64,000 bases of DNA. Source: Gemmatimonadota bacterium (lineage in GTDB: Bacteria > ARS69). The notes beneath the pieces were generated by a model. That model saw only the letters and a program-made list of their open reading frames with translations. It was not told the DNA's origin and made no database searches. The translations under genes were made by a program, and so were the position numbers. The first letter of the stretch is position 1, and each line of letters opens with the position of its first letter. The stretch is from contig JASLLL010000013.1 of assembly GCA_030747075.1 (NCBI GenBank), forward strand, positions 6,738 to 70,737. Direction: 5' to 3'. Shown here one piece after another: positions 12,097 to 21,341 of this stretch.

Positions 12097-12911
12097 TCGA
12101 TCTGCACTGCCATATCCTCCCCGGACTCGACGATGGTGCCGCGGATGATCACCAGGCGCTGGCCATGGCGAGAGCGGCTGTGGACATGGGCATTCAGGAG
12201 GTGGCGGCCACTTCGCACTTCGGGTTCTTCTCGTTGTTCTCCGCAGACTCCGGGAGCATTCGCGCGGAGCGGGATCGTCTGGTAGAACTCGTTGCGGCCG
12301 AGGGGATTCCTCTGGAGATTCACCCCGGTGCGGAGAACTACTACGGGGAGATGGAGCCCGCAGAGTTTGCATCGCGGGCGATCCCTCTGGCGGAAGGCCC
12401 GTATGTACTCATGGACTTCTCTTTTCGGCGGGTCCCGGAGACTCTGGCGGAGGGTCTCGCCCGGCTTCGGCAGGGGGGGCGGATCCCTGTGATCGCTCAC
12501 CCGGAGCGGAATCGGGAAGTTCAGCTGCTGCCGAAGATTGTGGTGGACTGGTTGGATGCGGGAGCCATGCTGCAGGTGAATGCCTCCAGCCTGACAGGAC
12601 TGCTTGGCGAAGATGCACAGTTGGCGGCGGAGACACTTCTGGCTGCGGGAGCCGTGCAGATACTCGGCTCGGATGCACACGACCTCAGCCGACGCCCGTT
12701 CTGCCTGAGCGCGGGAGAGGCGGCGGCGGCGGACATCGTGGGAGCGGATGCAGCAGCACGAATGGTACGCGATACCCCCCGGGCCGTGTTGCGCGGGGAG
12801 AAGATAGAAGTTCGGAGCCCGGATTCGGATCGGCTGAGCGGAGGAGCATCGCTCTTCGACCGGATGTTCGGGCGGGGGCGGGGCCAGACCGAGCAAGGAG
12901 ATCGAGAGTGA
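12093..12911 (+). CDS. cpsB: CpsB/YwqE-type PHP-domain tyrosine-protein phosphatase
   Basis: Manganese-dependent PHP-fold phosphatase (272 aa) of the family that dephosphorylates BY-kinases controlling capsule/exopolysaccharide length. The N-terminus MIDLHCHILPGLDDGAADD carries the HxH metal motif; further metal ligands are in ATSHF, IPVIAHPERN and ILGSDAHDL. GTG 12093 overlaps the alaS stop. The gene opens a glycan operon (rmlA, rmlD, wzm, wzt). A possible partner, a degenerate BY-kinase-like protein, lies at 47407. The exact substrate is inferred. Confidence 0.85.
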
Positions 12912-13975
12912 AAGGCCTGATTCTCTCCGGAGGGAAGGGAACACGACTGAGACCCATCACGCACACGAGTGCCAAGCAACTGGTGCCGGTCGCGAACAAG
13001 CCGATCCTCTTCTTCGCCATTGAAGCCGTGCGCGACGCGGGGGTCGAGGAGATCGGGATCGTGGTGGGGGAGACGGGTGCGGAGATTCGCGCGGCCGTGG
13101 GGGACGGGTCCGCGTTCGGCGTGAAGATCACCTACATCCCGCAGGAGAATCCGCTCGGACTGGCGCACGCCGTCAAGGTCTCGCGGGACTTCCTCGGCGA
13201 GGATCCATTTGTGATGTTTCTGGGCGACAACCTCATCAAGGACGGGATCACCCCACTGGTGGACGAGTTCCGGCGAGACGGCCCGAACTCGCAGATCCTC
13301 CTCGCGAGCGTGCCCAACCCGTCGGAGTTCGGGGTGGCGGAGATTGCGGACGGGAAGGTCGTCGGGTTGGAAGAGAAACCCGCGCAGCCGAAGTCGGAGT
13401 TCGCGCTGGTGGGCGTCTACATGTTCGACCGGAGCATTCACGAGGCGGTGGACAACATCCAGCCTTCCGCACGGGGAGAACTGGAGATCACCGATGCCAT
13501 CCAGTATCTGATCGACCACGACTTCGATGTACGCAGCCATGTCATTCGTGGCTGGTGGAAGGACACCGGGAAACTGGAGGACATGCTGGAAGCCAACCGG
13601 ATTGTGCTGAGCAGTCTGGAGCGACGCATCGACGGGGAAGTGGACGATCGGAGCCGTATCATCGGAGAGGTCGTCGTGGGGAAGGGGGCGCGTGTGGAAA
13701 ACTCCGAACTTCGCGGGCCGCTTATCCTGGGAGAGGGTGCGGTCGTGAAGGACTCCTATGTCGGGCCGTTCACATCCATTTCGGATCAGTGCGAAGTGCT
13801 TTCGTCGGAGGTGGAGTTCTCCATCATCCTGAAGGGCGGGCGCGTCCACGATCTGGACCGGCGTATGGAAGGGAGTCTTGTGGGGCGCAACGCCACCATC
13901 CTCTCTTCCGCCGTCCGTCCCCGGGCGTACCGGTTCATGGTGGGCGACAACTCCGAGGTCCGGGTCCCCCGATGA
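12908..13975 (+). CDS. rmlA: glucose-1-phosphate thymidylyltransferase, long form
   Basis: Nucleotidyltransferase (355 aa) making dTDP-glucose from dTTP and glucose-1-phosphate. The N-terminal motif GGKGTRLRP (residues 8-16), the conserved KQLVPVANKPILFF and FLGDNLI are clear. The C-terminal part (about 245-350) is a left-handed beta-helix with hexapeptide-like repeats, as in the StrD-type long subfamily that acts in modified-sugar pathways. It overlaps the phosphatase gene and rmlD by 4 nt each. rmlB and rmlC are not in this window. Confidence 0.92.
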   Translation: MKGLILSGGKGTRLRPITHTSAKQLVPVANKPILFFAIEAVRDAGVEEIGIVVGETGAEIRAAVGDGSAFGVKITYIPQENPLGLAHAVKVSRDFLGEDPFVMFLGDNLIKDGITPLVDEFRRDGPNSQILLASVPNPSEFGVAEIADGKVVGLEEKPAQPKSEFALVGVYMFDRSIHEAVDNIQPSARGELEITDAIQYLIDHDFDVRSHVIRGWWKDTGKLEDMLEANRIVLSSLERRIDGEVDDRSRIIGEVVVGKGARVENSELRGPLILGEGAVVKDSYVGPFTSISDQCEVLSSEVEFSIILKGGRVHDLDRRMEGSLVGRNATILSSAVRPRAYRFMVGDNSEVRVPR

Positions 13976-14871
13976 GCGCCGAACGAGGCGGTGAGTCCGC
14001 ATCTCAGGCGACGGTTCGCGTGGCGGCCACCGGGTGCGCGGGCATGCTCGGGAGGGAGCTGGGTGCAGAGGCTGCGGCGCGGGGCGTGCCGTTCACCGGG
14101 TGGGATCTTCCGGACTTTGACCTGACGGATCGAGAAGCCGTGATGCGGGAGATCGGGTCGGCGCGACCGGATGTGGTAATCCATGCCGCCGCATGGACGG
14201 ATGTGGATGGCTGCGAGTCGAATCCTTCGAAGGCGTTTCTTGTGAACGGACGGGCCACGGCGCATGTCGTGGAGGCGTGCCGGGAAGCGGGGGCGCGCGT
14301 CGTCCATGTCTCCACGGACTATGTGTTCCCGGGAGACCTCGACCGCCCGTACCGCGAGGACGATCTGCCCGGTCCGCTTTCCGTCTACGGTTGGTCGAAA
14401 CTTGCCGGGGAGGAAGCGGTCCGTTCGCTGGGGGACGCGGGTGCCATTGCGCGGACCGCCTGGCTGTATGCGGGCCACGGTGCGAACTTCCTCCGCACGA
14501 TGCTGCGTCTCGGCCGGGAGAGGGATTCCCTGGCCGTGGTCGACGACCAGTTGGGTTCACCGACCTTTGCGGGAGATCTTGCGCGGGTGTTGCTTGATCT
14601 CGCGATCGAAGGCGGGAGCGGCACATTTCACACCACCAACACCGGTTCGGTCACCTGGCACGGCTTCGCCAGCGCCATCTTTGCGGCGGCCGGAATCGGC
14701 GTCGAAGTGAAGGCGGTGACGAGTGCGGACTTCCCCCGACCGGCTCACCGCCCCGCGAACTCCGTGTTGCTGGATTCCCGGCTTGCTGATGCGGGGATTC
14801 ATCCGATGCCGTCGTGGGAAGACGGGCTGGCCCGGTGCTTTGCGGGAATGGCGAAGGAAGGTGCGGCATGA
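13972..14871 (+). CDS. rmlD: dTDP-4-dehydrorhamnose reductase
   Basis: Short-chain (extended) reductase of 299 aa completing dTDP-L-rhamnose synthesis. The Rossmann motif ATGCAGMLGREL, DFDLTDREAV, VIHAAAWTDVDGCE, the catalytic VSTDYVFPG and the YGWSKLAGE Tyr-xxx-Lys are all present. ATG 13972 overlaps the rmlA stop (ATGA). A short Ser/Gln-rich N-terminal extension precedes the Rossmann fold. With rmlA it points to rhamnose or a related deoxysugar in the glycan made here. Confidence 0.93.
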   Translation: MSAERGGESASQATVRVAATGCAGMLGRELGAEAAARGVPFTGWDLPDFDLTDREAVMREIGSARPDVVIHAAAWTDVDGCESNPSKAFLVNGRATAHVVEACREAGARVVHVSTDYVFPGDLDRPYREDDLPGPLSVYGWSKLAGEEAVRSLGDAGAIARTAWLYAGHGANFLRTMLRLGRERDSLAVVDDQLGSPTFAGDLARVLLDLAIEGGSGTFHTTNTGSVTWHGFASAIFAAAGIGVEVKAVTSADFPRPAHRPANSVLLDSRLADAGIHPMPSWEDGLARCFAGMAKEGAA

Positions 14872-15716
14872 CGGAAGACAGCGCGGCAGTCATCGCGGCC
14901 GGGCGCGCGGACTACGACTCGGCGGTTCGGCGCGGCCGGGCGATCGACGAACTGAGTGAGTTGTTCCGATTTCGCCATCTGGTCGTACAGCTCGTGAAGC
15001 GGAATGTCACCTCGCGGTACAAGCGGTCATTCCTGGGACTGGCGTGGACTCTCCTTGATCCACTCCTCACGATGGGCGTGATGGCTGCCGTGTATTCCGC
15101 GATTATCCGGGATCGGGTGGAGGCCTTCCCTGTCTACATCTTGTCCGGGCTGGTGATCTGGAATTTCTTCTCGCAGTCGAGCACTCAGGCGATCACCTAC
15201 TTCCTGCACGGGCGGGCGCTCCTCGGGCGCGTGTACATGCCCAAGGCGACGATGGGGGTGGCGGCGGTCGGCACCGGTTTCGTCAACCTGGTGGCGTCCA
15301 TCATTCCACTGATGGTGTTCATGGTGATCTTCCGATGCCAGTTCACTCCCGCGCTGCTCTTCGTGCCGGTCGCCATTCTGCTGGCGTCTGCATTCACGCT
15401 GGGTGTCGGGCTCCTGGTGTCCGCATGGTCGGTTTTCTTCGGAGACATGGAGAACATTTTCCGGTTTCTCCTGCGGCTGGCCATGTATCTGTCCGGGATT
15501 TTCTACTCGCTGGACATCCTGCCGGAGCAGCTGAGACGGGTTGTCTGGTGTATGCCGACCTATCATCTGATTGAACTGTTCCGATCCCCCGTTCACACCG
15601 GGACTCTCCCGGACGGTCAGAGCATTCTGATTGGAGTCGCATGGTCGCTGGGTTTCCTTCTCGCAGGTTTCGGGTACTTCGCACGAAAGTCGAATGCGTA
15701 TGCATACCGACTCTGA
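14868..15716 (+). CDS. wzm: ABC-2 type polysaccharide export permease (Wzm-like)
   Basis: Membrane component (282 aa) of an ABC exporter for lipid-linked polysaccharide. The soluble N-terminus leads into the family motif LVKRNVTSRYKRSFLGLAWTLLDPLL, followed by about six hydrophobic segments and the typical end (YHLIELFRSP, GYFARKSNAYAYRL). ATG 14868 overlaps rmlD by 4 nt, and the ATP-binding subunit follows at once. It would move undecaprenyl-diphosphate-linked glycan across the inner membrane. Confidence 0.93.
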   Translation: MTEDSAAVIAAGRADYDSAVRRGRAIDELSELFRFRHLVVQLVKRNVTSRYKRSFLGLAWTLLDPLLTMGVMAAVYSAIIRDRVEAFPVYILSGLVIWNFFSQSSTQAITYFLHGRALLGRVYMPKATMGVAAVGTGFVNLVASIIPLMVFMVIFRCQFTPALLFVPVAILLASAFTLGVGLLVSAWSVFFGDMENIFRFLLRLAMYLSGIFYSLDILPEQLRRVVWCMPTYHLIELFRSPVHTGTLPDGQSILIGVAWSLGFLLAGFGYFARKSNAYAYRL

Positions 15717-16515
15717 CAGCCCGCGCGTAGCGGAACAGGCGTCGGAGAGACCCCCGGCGCTTCTTCTGTCCGGAGTGTCGGTGGCTTTCGAATCGCACCG
15801 AACACCGGCGGCCACTCTGAAGGAACACCTGATCCGCTGGACCAAGCGGGATCTTGAGAAGAAGAGTGTCCGCGCTCTGGACGGACTGGATCTGCGGGTG
15901 GATCGGGGAGAGGTGTTTGGGATCGTCGGGAGAAACGGGGCGGGGAAGAGCACTCTCCTGCGCGTGATTTCCGGCATCCTGCACCCGTCTCGGGGAAGGG
16001 TTCGAGTCTGGGGGAAGGTCACGCCGCTTCTCGGCGTCGGTGCCGGGTTCCACGGCGATCTGACCGGGCGGGAGAATATCGCGCTTTACTCGGCCATCCT
16101 CGGGCGAAGCCCGGAGCGTACCCGTGAGCTGGTGGACGACATCATCCGCTTCTCCGAACTTGCGGACTTTATCGACGCGCCGCTTCGCGTGTACTCCGCG
16201 GGCATGTCCGCACGGCTCGGATTCGCCGTCGCACTGGCCGAGTCGCCGGAGGTCCTTCTGGTTGATGAAGTGCTCGGCGTCGGGGACGAACAGTTCCGCC
16301 GGAAGTGCCGGGACCGCTTTGAAGAGATCCGCAAGGCCGGCGCCACCATTGTCATCGTGACGCACTCGATGTCCGTTGCCAAAGAGATGTGCGACCGACT
16401 GGCGTGGATCGAGAATGGCAAGGTCCGCGAGTGCGGGACTTCCGAAGAAGTGGCCGCATCCTATGTGGAGTTCCAGAAGGCGGTTCGGAGCGCCTCCACG
16501 ATCCGCCCCCGCTGA
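15694..16515 (+). CDS. wzt: ABC polysaccharide exporter ATP-binding subunit (Wzt-like, short form)
   Basis: ATPase partner of the preceding permease, 273 aa. It shows Walker A GRNGAGKS (about residue 79), the signature YSAGMSARLGF and Walker B VLLVDEVLGVGD, plus the family N-terminal KEHLIRWTKRD insertion. It starts inside the end of the permease gene (ATG 15694 or 15700). The chain stops soon after the nucleotide-binding domain, so it lacks the C-terminal carbohydrate-binding domain of the long Wzt proteins that recognise capped chain ends. Confidence 0.92.
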   Translation: MRMHTDSDSPRVAEQASERPPALLLSGVSVAFESHRTPAATLKEHLIRWTKRDLEKKSVRALDGLDLRVDRGEVFGIVGRNGAGKSTLLRVISGILHPSRGRVRVWGKVTPLLGVGAGFHGDLTGRENIALYSAILGRSPERTRELVDDIIRFSELADFIDAPLRVYSAGMSARLGFAVALAESPEVLLVDEVLGVGDEQFRRKCRDRFEEIRKAGATIVIVTHSMSVAKEMCDRLAWIENGKVRECGTSEEVAASYVEFQKAVRSASTIRPR

Positions 16516-16569: not shown

Positions 16570-16598
16570 TTGACTCGGCTCCTTTCGCGTGGGAGCAT
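16570..16598 (+). promoter_or_regulatory. possible promoter upstream of the sulfotransferase/glycosyltransferase gene
   Basis: TTGACT (16570-16575), a 17-nt spacer, then GAGCAT (16593-16598), in the 163-nt gap after wzt. The -10 is weak (three of six consensus bases). Its form resembles the candidate in front of selA. Confidence 0.3.
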
Positions 16599-16678
16599 CG
16601 CTCGACCCGGCCACTGATTCCCACCGTTCTGCGCAGCCCGGGCAGGTTCCCCGAGAGCCTGTGCGGAGGAGGCGCCCC

Positions 16679-19600
16679 TTGCGACCCGTGATTCTCGTGC
16701 TTGGCATGCATCGAAGCGGCACTTCCGCAGTGGCGGGGGCCGTACGGATGCTCGGCGTAGACCTCGGGGATTCGCTGATGCCGGGACGCGCGGGGGAGAA
16801 CCCACAGGGTTTCTTCGAAGACACCCGCGTCATGGCCGCCAACGAGAACATTCTGGAGTCCGCAGCGTCCTCGTGGGATGACCCCTTTGGAATCGATCCG
16901 GGCTGGTTTGATTCGGATGAAGGGAAGCCCCATGCGCGAGACCTTTCATCGCTTCTCGTGGGGATGTTCCCGGAGGATGCGCTGTGCGGAGTGAAAGACC
17001 CGCGCATCTGTCGGTTGCTTCCCGTGTGGACGGCCGCACTGGAGCAGGCGGGACTCGCGCCCCATGTCCTTCTGGTGACCAGGCCTTGCGCGGAGGTCGC
17101 CGATTCGCTGGCTCGAAGGAACGGCTTCTCGCGTGAGAAGTCGGCCTTCCTCTGGGCCGACCATGTCCTTCGGGCGGAGGAGGGGACGCGGAGGATCCCG
17201 CGAGTGTTCCTGCCCTATGCGGACCTGCTGGAGAATCCCGCCGGGGTGCTGGCCGGAGCGGGACACGCTCTGGGAATCACCTGGCCGGTATCTCCGGAGG
17301 CGGCCTCGACACGGCTGCGCGCATTTGTCACCGGCGAGCTTCGGCACCACCGGGTCGGGGACGCGGAGAAGTCGCATCGTCGCGCAGACGGATTCGTGCG
17401 GGAACTGGATCTGCTGCTGGAAAGCGTCGCGGGCGGTTGCGGCGGCGGCGGCACGACCCGGTTTGACCGAATGGCGGAGCAAGTGGCGGCCGTCCTTCCC
17501 CGAATGGATCCGCTCTGGCAGGAACACTTGAGCCGTGGCGTCCGGGTGGCGGATCAAGTTGCGGGGCTGGAACAGACCTTGTCCGATCGGACCGAGTGGC
17601 TGCGTGCGTCGGCGGAGGAAGTGAAGAGTCTTCGGGCCGCCGTGGAGGAGATGCGCAACGCCGGATCCAAAGACGCGACCCGCCTGCGGGTGGAAGTGGA
17701 GGAGATTCGCGCCGCGACGCTGGATGTCGGCCGGCGCGTGGATCGTCTGGACTTCTTCCGGCTTGGCATGCGACTGGTCCGGTTCTCTCGACGGGTGGCG
17801 GGCCGCCTGGTGCGCGGCGCGGCGCGGCGAAGGAGCGCCCTTCACGGCAGACTCCGCGACGCATTCCTGAAGCGGCCGGTGACCCGCGCGCGAGTGACTG
17901 GGATTGCACTGCCTCAGCATGAACATCCGGATGTCTCGATCATCATCCCCGTGTTCAACCAGACGGGTCATACCGTCCGGTGCCTGGAATCGCTGGCGGC
18001 ATTGCGGGAGGAGACCTCCTTCGAGGTGGTCCTGGTGGATGACGCCTCCACGGCCGCGTCGATTGGCCTGCTGGCGTCGGTAAGGTCGATCCGACTCGTG
18101 CGAAACGAACGCAATCTCGGGTTTGTGCATTCGTGCAATCGGGGCGCGAAGGAGGCGAAGGGGCGGCACCTTCTCTTCCTGAACAACGACACGCGCGTGG
18201 AGCCGGGTTTCCTGGACCGGCTTCGGGCCTCTTTGGAGGAGTTCCCGGATGCGGGGATTGTGGGTGCCCAACTGGTGTACCCGGACGGCCGCCTGCAGGA
18301 ATCGGGCGGGATCGTCTGGGAGGACGCCAGTGCGTGGAATTACGGTCACGGGAGAGACCCGTCCGCACCGGAGGTTTCGTATCTTCGCGAAGTCGATTAC
18401 TGCTCCGGTGCATGCATCCTGGTGGACCGGAGTCTGTTCAACGAACTGGGCGGGTTCGATGAGCGGTACGCTCCCGCCTACTACGAAGATGTGGATCTTG
18501 CTTTTCGCGTTCGCGAGGCCGGTCGACGCGTGCTTGTCAACCCTGTGGCGCGTGTCATTCATTGCGAAGGTGCCACTTCCGGTACGGACCCGGAGAGTGG
18601 TGTGAAGCGGTACCAGGTGCGCAACCAGCAGATCTTCCTGGATCGATGGCGGAAGGAACTTGGCTGCCACGGCCGAAACGGGGAAGACCCGGAACGGGCG
18701 AAGGAGCGGAAGGCCCGTTCCCGCGTCCTCGTCATCGACCACCGTATGCCGACTCCCGATCAGGACGCGGGATCGCAGCGAATCCAATGGATGATGCGGA
18801 TTCTTCGCGACCTCGGCCATCGAGTGACCTTTCTGCCCGACAATCTACTCCCGTCCGAACCCTACGGGGCAGACCTTCGCGCGCTGGGCGTGGAGGTATG
18901 GCAGTCACCGCACCTCAGGACGATCCGCCACTTCCTGGAGTGCCGGGGGAGCGAGTTCGATCTTGTGATTCTGAGCCGTCTGGGTACGGCGGGAACTCAT
19001 ATCGATGATGTGCGGAGGCTCTGTCCGCGGGCGCGGGTCGTCTTCGATACGGTGGACCTGCACTTTCTTCGTGAAGAGCGGGCCGCAGAGTTGACCGGGA
19101 GTGCCGCCGATCTCGCGGCCGCGCGGGAGACACGCACGCGGGAACTCTCGGTGGCCCGCCGTGCGCACGAGACGCTGGTCGTCAGTGAAGAGGAACGCGA
19201 ACTCATCCAGAGCATCGATCCGAATCTCGCCGTGCGTATCGTCCCCACCATCCACGAGACTTCCGCGTCCGGGCTTCCATTCGAGGAGCGGCACGGACTT
19301 CTCTTCGTGGGGGGGTTCGAGCATCCGCCCAATGCTGATGGCGTCCGGTGGTTCGTGGAGACCGTGCTGCCGATGGTACGGGAGGAACTGCCGGATGTTT
19401 CGCTTCGGATCGTGGGCAGCAAGCCGACACCGGAGATGGATGCTCTCGCGGGACGGGGCGTGGATGTCGCCGGGTGGGTGCCGGATCTCGAAGCGCTTCT
19501 CCGCGAGTCCCGGGTATCCATCGCGCCGCTCCGGTTTGGCGCCGGGGTGAAGGGGAAAGTCTGCGAGAGCCTCGCGCACGGGTTGCCGACCGTGGGAACG

Positions 19601-19861
19601 AGCATCGCCTGCGAGGGGATGGCGCTCACTCATCGAACAGACATCTGCATCGCGGACACGGCGCACGACTTCGCGCGGGAAGTGGTGCGTCTGCATCAGG
19701 ATCGTGCCTTGTGGACGCAGTTGGCCTCAGCGGGGCAGGAAGTGATCCGGAACCGGTTCTCTCCCGCCGTAGCCAGGGACGCACTTCGACGACTGGGGCG
19801 CGGCCCCGCCGAATCCCCCCGGGGGGGACTCCTGGCGGTGGAAGCCCAACTACTCTCATGA
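16679..19861 (+). CDS. three-domain protein: sulfotransferase-like, GT2 and GT4 glycosyltransferases
   Basis: TTG 16679 is placed 6 nt after GGAGGAGG and gives 1060 aa. Residues 1-220 resemble P-loop sulfotransferases, with VLGMHRSGTSAV as the PAPS 5'-phosphate loop and VKDPRICRLLPVW. A helical, charged region lies near 285-375. Residues about 415-660 form a GT2 domain (VSIIIPVFNQTGHTVRCLES, LNNDTRVEPGF as the acidic motif, YYEDVDLAFRVREAG). Residues about 680-1040 form a GT4 domain (GLLFVGGFEHPPNADGVRWF, GAGVKGKVCESLAHGLPT). It may elongate and sulfate the exported glycan, or the first domain may only bind. It is preceded by the exporter and followed by a kinase-like/methyltransferase fusion. 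Confidence 0.85.
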   Translation: MRPVILVLGMHRSGTSAVAGAVRMLGVDLGDSLMPGRAGENPQGFFEDTRVMAANENILESAASSWDDPFGIDPGWFDSDEGKPHARDLSSLLVGMFPEDALCGVKDPRICRLLPVWTAALEQAGLAPHVLLVTRPCAEVADSLARRNGFSREKSAFLWADHVLRAEEGTRRIPRVFLPYADLLENPAGVLAGAGHALGITWPVSPEAASTRLRAFVTGELRHHRVGDAEKSHRRADGFVRELDLLLESVAGGCGGGGTTRFDRMAEQVAAVLPRMDPLWQEHLSRGVRVADQVAGLEQTLSDRTEWLRASAEEVKSLRAAVEEMRNAGSKDATRLRVEVEEIRAATLDVGRRVDRLDFFRLGMRLVRFSRRVAGRLVRGAARRRSALHGRLRDAFLKRPVTRARVTGIALPQHEHPDVSIIIPVFNQTGHTVRCLESLAALREETSFEVVLVDDASTAASIGLLASVRSIRLVRNERNLGFVHSCNRGAKEAKGRHLLFLNNDTRVEPGFLDRLRASLEEFPDAGIVGAQLVYPDGRLQESGGIVWEDASAWNYGHGRDPSAPEVSYLREVDYCSGACILVDRSLFNELGGFDERYAPAYYEDVDLAFRVREAGRRVLVNPVARVIHCEGATSGTDPESGVKRYQVRNQQIFLDRWRKELGCHGRNGEDPERAKERKARSRVLVIDHRMPTPDQDAGSQRIQWMMRILRDLGHRVTFLPDNLLPSEPYGADLRALGVEVWQSPHLRTIRHFLECRGSEFDLVILSRLGTAGTHIDDVRRLCPRARVVFDTVDLHFLREERAAELTGSAADLAAARETRTRELSVARRAHETLVVSEEERELIQSIDPNLAVRIVPTIHETSASGLPFEERHGLLFVGGFEHPPNADGVRWFVETVLPMVREELPDVSLRIVGSKPTPEMDALAGRGVDVAGWVPDLEALLRESRVSIAPLRFGAGVKGKVCESLAHGLPTVGTSIACEGMALTHRTDICIADTAHDFAREVVRLHQDRALWTQLASAGQEVIRNRFSPAVARDALRRLGRGPAESPRGGLLAVEAQLLS

Positions 19862-19877
19862 CAGGAGGCGACCAGAA

Positions 19878-21341
19878 ATGGCATTGACCGCACTGGCCGG
19901 TCCACCCGGAGTGGGGAAGACCACCCACCTCATTGGAAGGCTCGAGGACGCGCAGAATGCCGGGAATCCCACGGCGCTCTTTTTGTGCAGCGACTCGGAC
20001 GATCTTCGATCGCGCCCGAATGTCCGGGAAGGCGGCACCATGGGATGTCGCACTCCCGGGATGGGCGCGACCATTGACCACTTCGTTTCGGCAGCGGAAG
20101 CAGGCCGTATCCTCTCGGAACTTCCCGCCGGGAGCCTGGCGGCCTTCGACGAAGCGGCGTGGTTCGGTGTGGACATCGTGGAGGCGTGGATCGAAGCGGA
20201 GCGGCGAGGAGTGGATGTCGTGGTGTCTTCGCTCTCCGAGCAGCAGGTGGCAATCCTGAAAGAGCGAAGCTACCCGGTCACGCGGCTTACCGTACCCTGC
20301 ATGCTTTGCGGGAAGGACCGGGGGCGTCACTCGCACGAACTGTTCCACACGGCGGAGCGCGGTTTCGTCGTGGTGTGCGATGCCTGTCGCGAGGCGGTCG
20401 CCAGGAACCAATGCCGATCGGAACCTTCTTCTCTGGATGGTGAACTCTGCGAGGAGCTCACTTCGGAACTCAGGCGCATGAAGCCCTTCCCGGGAAAGGA
20501 GCACGCGTATCAGCCGGTCTTCGGGTTGGACCTCCCGGGCTGGGAACTGGTGCGGGGAGACACGCCGATTCGCGCGGACCTCATTCGAGAGGTGCTGGAG
20601 GCGGCCTTCCCGGCGTGGAGCGCGTCATCGAGGGCGGGCGAAGCCGACGGTCGTCCCAGCTTCATCGATCTGGGATGCTGCACCGGGTTTTTCTGCGAGT
20701 ACTTTGCGGCGCGGGGATGGGAGGCCTGGGGGCTGGACATCGACGAGGACTTCATCGCGCTGGCTCGGCGCGTGTCACAGGCTCTTGGAAGCGGAGTGGA
20801 GTACTGCCAGTCCGCGCTTCTTCCCCATGTGCAGGGCCATCCCGGCGCCCGGTTTGATGTGACCACTTCGTTCGCGACCGTGCAGTGGGTGATCGCCCAG
20901 AGCGGTCTGGATGCGGGGCTGGAGTGCTTCGACTGGATCTTCGGCGCGGCGCGGAAGATGTGTGTTCTTGAGATGGGCTACTCGGAAGAGGAGATCTACC
21001 GGGAGAAGCTGCCCGTGCGCATCGACCGCGAGTGGGTTGAAGAACTCATGCGAACCCGTGGAGGATTCGACGAGGTTCTCGTGATTCCGAAGGGATCGCG
21101 GGGCGTCTGGCGAGATCTCTTCATCGGTCTGAAGGATCCGGAAGTGTGCGGAGTGACCGTGTCCGGGGAGGGCGCGGCCGAACCGGGCCGACCCGCGCCC
21201 GTATGGAACGCGGCCGGTATTCTAGGGCTGGCAGCGCGTGCCGTGCGAAACCCGGGGCGCGTCGTGCAACTGGGCGGGAAGGCCGTACAGGATCCGGCGA
21301 GGGCGATGCGCGAACTGGGGCGGCGGTTGCGCGGCGGTTGA
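19878..21341 (+). CDS. fusion of a thymidine-kinase-like P-loop domain and a SAM methyltransferase
   Basis: 487 aa; ATG 19878 follows GGAGG by 9 nt. The N-terminal ~175 residues resemble type II thymidine kinases: P-loop GPPGVGKTT (8-16), acidic DEAAWFG (Asp91-Glu92, where TK has DExQFF) and a zinc-ribbon pattern Cys141-x2-Cys144 ... Cys167-x2-Cys170 after a TK-like VTRLTVPC. Residues about 255-400 form a class I methyltransferase with FIDLGCCTGFF (262-272) and the acidic GLDIDED near Asp287. The last ~45 residues are basic and amphipathic with a repeated A-V-x-x-P-x-R pattern. No known enzyme with this exact make-up is recognised. Location two genes after wzm/wzt suggests glycan modification; the kinase activity is untested and deoxynucleoside salvage is the alternative. 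Confidence 0.72.
   Translation: MALTALAGPPGVGKTTHLIGRLEDAQNAGNPTALFLCSDSDDLRSRPNVREGGTMGCRTPGMGATIDHFVSAAEAGRILSELPAGSLAAFDEAAWFGVDIVEAWIEAERRGVDVVVSSLSEQQVAILKERSYPVTRLTVPCMLCGKDRGRHSHELFHTAERGFVVVCDACREAVARNQCRSEPSSLDGELCEELTSELRRMKPFPGKEHAYQPVFGLDLPGWELVRGDTPIRADLIREVLEAAFPAWSASSRAGEADGRPSFIDLGCCTGFFCEYFAARGWEAWGLDIDEDFIALARRVSQALGSGVEYCQSALLPHVQGHPGARFDVTTSFATVQWVIAQSGLDAGLECFDWIFGAARKMCVLEMGYSEEEIYREKLPVRIDREWVEELMRTRGGFDEVLVIPKGSRGVWRDLFIGLKDPEVCGVTVSGEGAAEPGRPAPVWNAAGILGLAARAVRNPGRVVQLGGKAVQDPARAMRELGRRLRGG

Follow-up and report, generated by a model that had tools for sequence, protein, structure and literature searches.

The fusion gene and its surroundings

The window analysed here, 64,000 nt from the genome of a Gemmatimonadota bacterium (GenBank assembly GCA_030747075.1, contig JASLLL010000013.1, positions 6,738 to 70,737 of the forward strand; coordinates below are those of the window), contains a glycan locus in which one gene (19878-21341, +) encodes a 487-aa protein, P0001, that joins a half related to type II thymidine kinase (TK1) to a class I S-adenosylmethionine (SAM) methyltransferase. 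The ribosome-binding site AGGAGG (19863-19868, +), read directly from the sequence, lies 9 nt 5’ of the ATG codon, and the gap between the end of the upstream gene and this codon is 16 nt. Codon usage in both halves of P0001 fits that of the neighbours (scores -1.12 and -1.01) and drops in shifted frames (-1.43 and -1.50); thus both halves belong to one translated gene. Considered without reads, a misassembly fusing two genes may be conceivable; no sign of one was seen. The first-pass annotation of this DNA, made from the sequence alone, had described a gene pairing a thymidine kinase (TK)-like half with a methyltransferase half, and the open reading frame (ORF), ribosome-binding site, codon usage and domain matches all agree with this.

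The gene order in the locus is alaS, cpsB (PHP phosphatase family), an rmlA-like gene, rmlD, wzm, wzt, a gene for a 1090-aa protein, and the gene of P0001, which is, as annotated earlier, close to wzm/wzt, being the second gene after wzt. The rmlA-like gene and rmlD (12908-14871, +) are assigned to the supply of a deoxythymidine diphosphate (dTDP)-sugar. Pfam identifies wzm (14814-15716, +) as an ABC-2 membrane component, and wzt (15631-16515, +) as a nucleotide-binding ABC domain only, with no carbohydrate-binding domain, which confirms an earlier caution that this Wzt lacks a cap-recognising domain. Beyond P0001 there are converging glycosyltransferase genes, a GT4 gene, a SIS-domain gene, a sugar-1-phosphate transferase gene, and others. 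A uridine kinase-family gene (PF00485, 29097-29789) was also found near the cluster, between a sugar-1-phosphate transferase/EamA pair and a UbiA prenyltransferase gene.

A divergent TK1 fold without the thymidine pocket

The TK1-like domain spans residues 1-180 (19878-20417, +) and was recognized by profile and hhalign matches and by a PDB fold search with an AlphaFold2 model. The three motifs listed in the first-pass annotation are in place: the P-loop GPPGVGKTT (residues 8-16; 19899-19925, +), seen in the sequence and by the TK profile; DEAAWF (residues 91-96; 20148-20165, +), in which, according to the TK alignment, the TK1 catalytic Glu is kept (E92), Gln is replaced by Ala94 and Phe by Trp95; and, from the sequence and the same alignment, the zinc-ribbon pairs C141xxC144 and C167xxC170 with an altered lasso between them (20298-20387, +).

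P0001 is not listed for the Pfam TK model PF00265 at E<=1, and its best curated TK match, the NCBIfam thymidine kinase model, is below the cut-off (E 0.013; 15.6 bits versus 183). Comparison with TKs gathered from genomes and viruses gave an hhalign probability of 97 for the N-terminal half, and a TK profile run over 2100 ORFs scored P0001 at 23.8 bits, while the best non-TK P-loop ORF had 12.5 and real TKs at least 71.8. The AlphaFold2 model of this half, built from an alignment with six viral TK rows, had a predicted local distance difference test (pLDDT) score of 73.9. The top 50 Foldseek matches of the model were all TKs, and the VIA Z was 13.8 for TK, 11.5 for the first non-TK (MutS2), and lower for clamp loaders; as TK rows were used in the alignment, this fold match and the sequence match are not entirely separate lines of evidence. 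Although highly divergent, the N-terminal half is a genuine relative of TK1. The original TK assignment is thus upheld by profile, hhalign and predicted fold, but not by the curated family models, and the outcome that had been named as speaking against it, a predicted fold without TK similarity, did not occur in the model with TK rows.

Forty-five TK columns were defined as conserved (kept in at least 85% of 18 TKs); P0001 keeps 17 of these and has lost 28. Those kept include G8, G13, K14, D91, E92, C141, C144, and C167, and C170, read from the sequence, rounds off the set of four zinc cysteines. The GLDxDFxxxPF thymidine-binding loop is mostly gone through a 7-residue deletion, including the second Asp and the Pro-Phe pair. 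Both the Gln and Phe of the TK DExQF motif are lost, as are the lasso Gly and Tyr, the latter being aligned to Phe163. In the Leishmania TK the Glu serves as catalytic base, and thymidine is covered by the lasso, which is anchored by an Arg together with a Tyr that all TKs share (PMC4433323). As the P-loop, catalytic Glu and zinc cysteines are kept and the loop and lasso residues are lost, the ATP-binding and catalytic centre of P0001 survives, whereas the nucleoside pocket does not. The domain has TK1 ancestry, with the fold, the P-loop, the Walker B Asp-Glu and the zinc site of TK1, but differs from TK1 in the loss of the thymidine pocket, in the fusion to a methyltransferase, and in being unseen by the Pfam model. 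An ordinary TK is encoded elsewhere in the genome (G000:C40, E 1.7e-50), so P0001 is not the housekeeping TK.

The methyltransferase half, known chain terminators and relatives

The C-terminal half contains a class I SAM methyltransferase domain at approximately residues 205-415 (20490-21122, +), with Pfam matches to Methyltransf_11 (E 1.7e-10) and Methyltransf_25, and a PDB sequence search places WbdD among its best matches, alongside UbiG and others. It is followed by a basic tail (residues 440-487; 21195-21338, +) with a computed net charge of +7 and a hydrophobic moment of up to 0.80, predicted to form an amphipathic membrane helix. Both features had been noted from the sequence alone and are retained here. 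A match of P0001 to the PADLOC mad2 model (E 5.2e-9) was considered as a sign of a defence function and rejected as a generic methyltransferase match. This model, PDLC04134, matches 193 of 193 genomes at E<=1e-12 and 14 of 14 control genomes; a mad2 match alone is therefore no sign of a defence system.

The first-pass annotation had gone further and suggested that P0001 could do the work of the Escherichia coli O9a terminator WbdD with an unrelated kinase fold. One part of this proposal stands: like WbdD, P0001 unites methyltransferase and kinase-like domains in a single protein, probably associated with the membrane, that is encoded in a wzm/wzt glycan cluster. In an alignment with the WbdD reference sequence, which agrees letter for letter with 4uw0, the two share YQxxFG, and the WbdD residues Tyr16, Arg36, and Asp82, which belong to the SAM and active sites, have equivalents in P0001 Y211, R232, and D287. 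However, WbdD His132 and His133 correspond to Gln336 and Trp337, and the equivalent of Arg203, grouped with them as a phosphate-handling residue, is ambiguous. In WbdD these histidines confer phosphate methylation, and they are absent from the O8 enzyme, which methylates hydroxyls (PMC3482155); with Gln-Trp in their place, methylation of a hydroxyl rather than a phosphate is expected for P0001, and the enzyme probably acts in this way.

The step to a WbdD-like terminator, in contrast, was not supported. The P0001 methyltransferase scores 21.9 bits against WbdD, while other collected methyltransferases reach 39.6 (in separate runs). Among 43 methyltransferases its WbdD-likeness outside the core corresponds to z 3.4 for the pre-core and post-core regions, with a pre-core rank of 5 of 43. 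A specific kinship with WbdD did not emerge: many of the comparison methyltransferases score equal or higher, and dozens of generic ones are at least as WbdD-like. No eukaryote-like kinase domain was found in P0001 by Pfam or fold search, its kinase-like half being unrelated to that of WbdD and placed at the opposite end of the chain, and no coiled coil was found by a simple heptad score (best value 0.74). In the terminated systems that have been studied, a coiled-coil ruler carries the terminator at its end, and the partner Wzt has a carbohydrate-binding domain (PMC11231755), unlike the Wzt of this locus. A further parallel is Klebsiella O7 ORF6, a methyltransferase-kinase terminator from a rhamnose glycan locus whose kinase also differs from that of WbdD (PMC11231755); yet this kinase is AmiN-like, and ORF6 has a coiled coil and C-terminal glycosyltransferases in the same chain, none of which occurs in P0001. 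The terminator hypothesis is thus weakened, because it draws on neighbourhood and analogy while the defining features of known terminators are mostly absent.

A sister genome contains a locus with a matching arrangement (G002:C79), including alaS, cpsB, rmlA, rmlD, wzm, wzt, and GT2/GT4 genes, but neither P0001 nor the 1090-aa protein. Near its wzt gene we observed a gene for a 984-aa protein composed of methyltransferase, coiled coil, GT2, and GT4 (L151:3226-6180, -; simple heptad score 1.52). This layout resembles Klebsiella O7 ORF6 and matches WsaE of Geobacillus, a methyltransferase-glycosyltransferase-glycosyltransferase protein whose methyltransferase is considered to add the 2-O-methyl cap at the end of a rhamnan (PMC2943079). 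WsaE, like P0001, places a methyltransferase in a wzm/wzt-rml cluster; P0001, however, has no glycosyltransferase domain and carries the TK1-like domain instead. Taken with the WsaE precedent, the sister protein makes it plausible that the exported glycan is methylated in this phylum, by enzymes that differ from genus to genus.

Searches for the complete fusion gave no relative in viral contigs, in 386 diverse genomes, in phage or plasmid records, or among 35 matches to a pattern of P-loop plus DExxWF (which requires the Trp), and none was confirmed in genome contigs; these searches used patterns and a sample of genomes, with metagenomes left out, and the absence is limited accordingly. The fusion is real and unusual, with no relative in the collections searched. 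A stand-alone methyltransferase from another genome (G370:C32; L131:2626-3363, -) has VFETG and an REWV stretch where P0001 has VLEMG and REWV, and adjoins a GT4 gene and a flippase-like fragment.

Possible roles in glycan assembly

We consider, with middling confidence, that P0001 is an O-methyltransferase of the glycan locus with a repurposed TK1-like ATP-binding module. It would be a membrane-associated enzyme of a pathway for a surface glycan, probably containing rhamnose, exported through Wzm/Wzt. The class I domain would use SAM to methylate the glycan, either during growth or after completion, with a sugar hydroxyl as the most likely acceptor, and the basic amphipathic tail may hold the protein at the membrane beside the glycosyltransferases. 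The N-terminal domain, a TK1 descendant with the ATP site, catalytic Glu and zinc site kept, could be a module that binds or hydrolyses ATP to shape or regulate the methyltransferase, or could transfer phosphate to some other acceptor. The strong ribosome-binding site, the position 16 nt behind a glycosyltransferase gene, and the cluster with cpsB, rmlA, rmlD, wzm, wzt, glycosyltransferases, and sugar-1-phosphate transferase are consistent with this role, as is the syntenic sister locus, where a methyltransferase is likewise present, fused to coil-GT2-GT4 in the WsaE layout.

Several points weigh against such a role. First, the locus context is an association only, and no related protein from another glycan locus backs it. 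Second, the sister methyltransferase is not closely related to that of P0001 (22% over 102 aa). Third, the methyltransferase half has no usable model, as the full-length single-sequence prediction had a pLDDT of 43, and the TK fold match partly rests on the TK rows inside the AlphaFold2 alignment. Finally, E92 and the intact P-loop, conserved in an orphan, could signal that real kinase activity is retained.

Among the alternatives, one that is compatible with O-methylation by P0001 has the best standing and appears quite possible, if not favoured: the chain would be terminated by the upstream 1090-aa protein (16589-19861, +), with its sulfotransferase-like head sulfating the glycan terminus at the distal end of the coil, while P0001 only decorates the glycan. 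In this protein, Pfam and the heptad score indicate a weak sulfotransferase-like domain, a coiled coil at approximately residues 322-395, GT2, and GT4; a basic stretch is also present, and the simple heptad score is 1.12, versus 0.74 for P0001. With a coil and a catalytic head in the 1090-aa protein, and no coil in P0001, the former is the better terminator candidate, and from its sequence it could possibly be a sulfate-capping one. Its Sulfotransfer_3 match (E 0.048) recurs in relatives from two sister genomes (E 0.0024 and 0.0031), and an APS (adenosine 5’-phosphosulfate) kinase encoded in the genome could supply PAPS (3’-phosphoadenosine 5’-phosphosulfate). However, the match is below the Pfam cut-off in every copy, no solved structure matches, and APS kinases are widespread in general sulfur assimilation; moreover, the proposal is about a neighbour and silent on the function of P0001.

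It looks unlikely that P0001 itself is a kinase-methyltransferase terminator, in which the TK1-like half phosphorylates the non-reducing glycan end and the methyltransferase half adds a methyl group to this phosphate or to a hydroxyl, so that growth stops. A kept catalytic Glu, P-loop and zinc site with a lost nucleoside pocket would fit a switch to a larger acceptor, ORF6 gives a precedent for a kinase unlike that of WbdD, and the amphipathic tail and wzm/wzt neighbourhood agree. These points are set against the absence of a coiled-coil ruler in P0001 and of a carbohydrate-binding domain in Wzt, the Gln336-Trp337 replacement, a similarity to WbdD no better than that of generic methyltransferases, and the coil-plus-catalytic-head layout already present in another protein of the cluster. 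We rate it as very improbable that the TK1 fold has been converted into a glycan kinase that, in fusion with a methyltransferase, caps a polysaccharide exported by Wzm/Wzt; this would be one more kinase fold recruited for chain termination independently of those in WbdD and ORF6.

It is similarly doubtful that P0001 is simply a methyltransferase whose TK-like half is an inactive remnant, serving only to hold the protein together or to form oligomers: the loss of 28 of the 45 conserved columns would suit this, and since TK1 forms tetramers (PMC4433323) the fold could act as a scaffold, but a remnant would not need to retain the P-loop lysine, the Walker B Asp-Glu and the complete set of four zinc cysteines. 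Modification of a small molecule rather than the polymer (a nucleoside, a nucleotide sugar such as a dTDP-sugar, or a lipid-linked precursor), suggested by TK1 ancestry and by rmlA and rmlD in the cluster, is rather improbable, as the residues holding the thymidine base are lost and no sugar-nucleotide-binding family was seen in P0001 with Pfam or NCBIfam.

The known role of TK1 is in nucleoside salvage. A version without the nucleoside pocket that keeps the catalytic centre and is joined to a methyltransferase in a polysaccharide locus would represent a new use of this fold. If P0001 does phosphorylate or cap the glycan, it would join the short list of chain-terminating chemistries represented by WbdD, Klebsiella O7 ORF6, and WbbB; if it only methylates, it would still bring together two domains in a combination new to glycan assembly.
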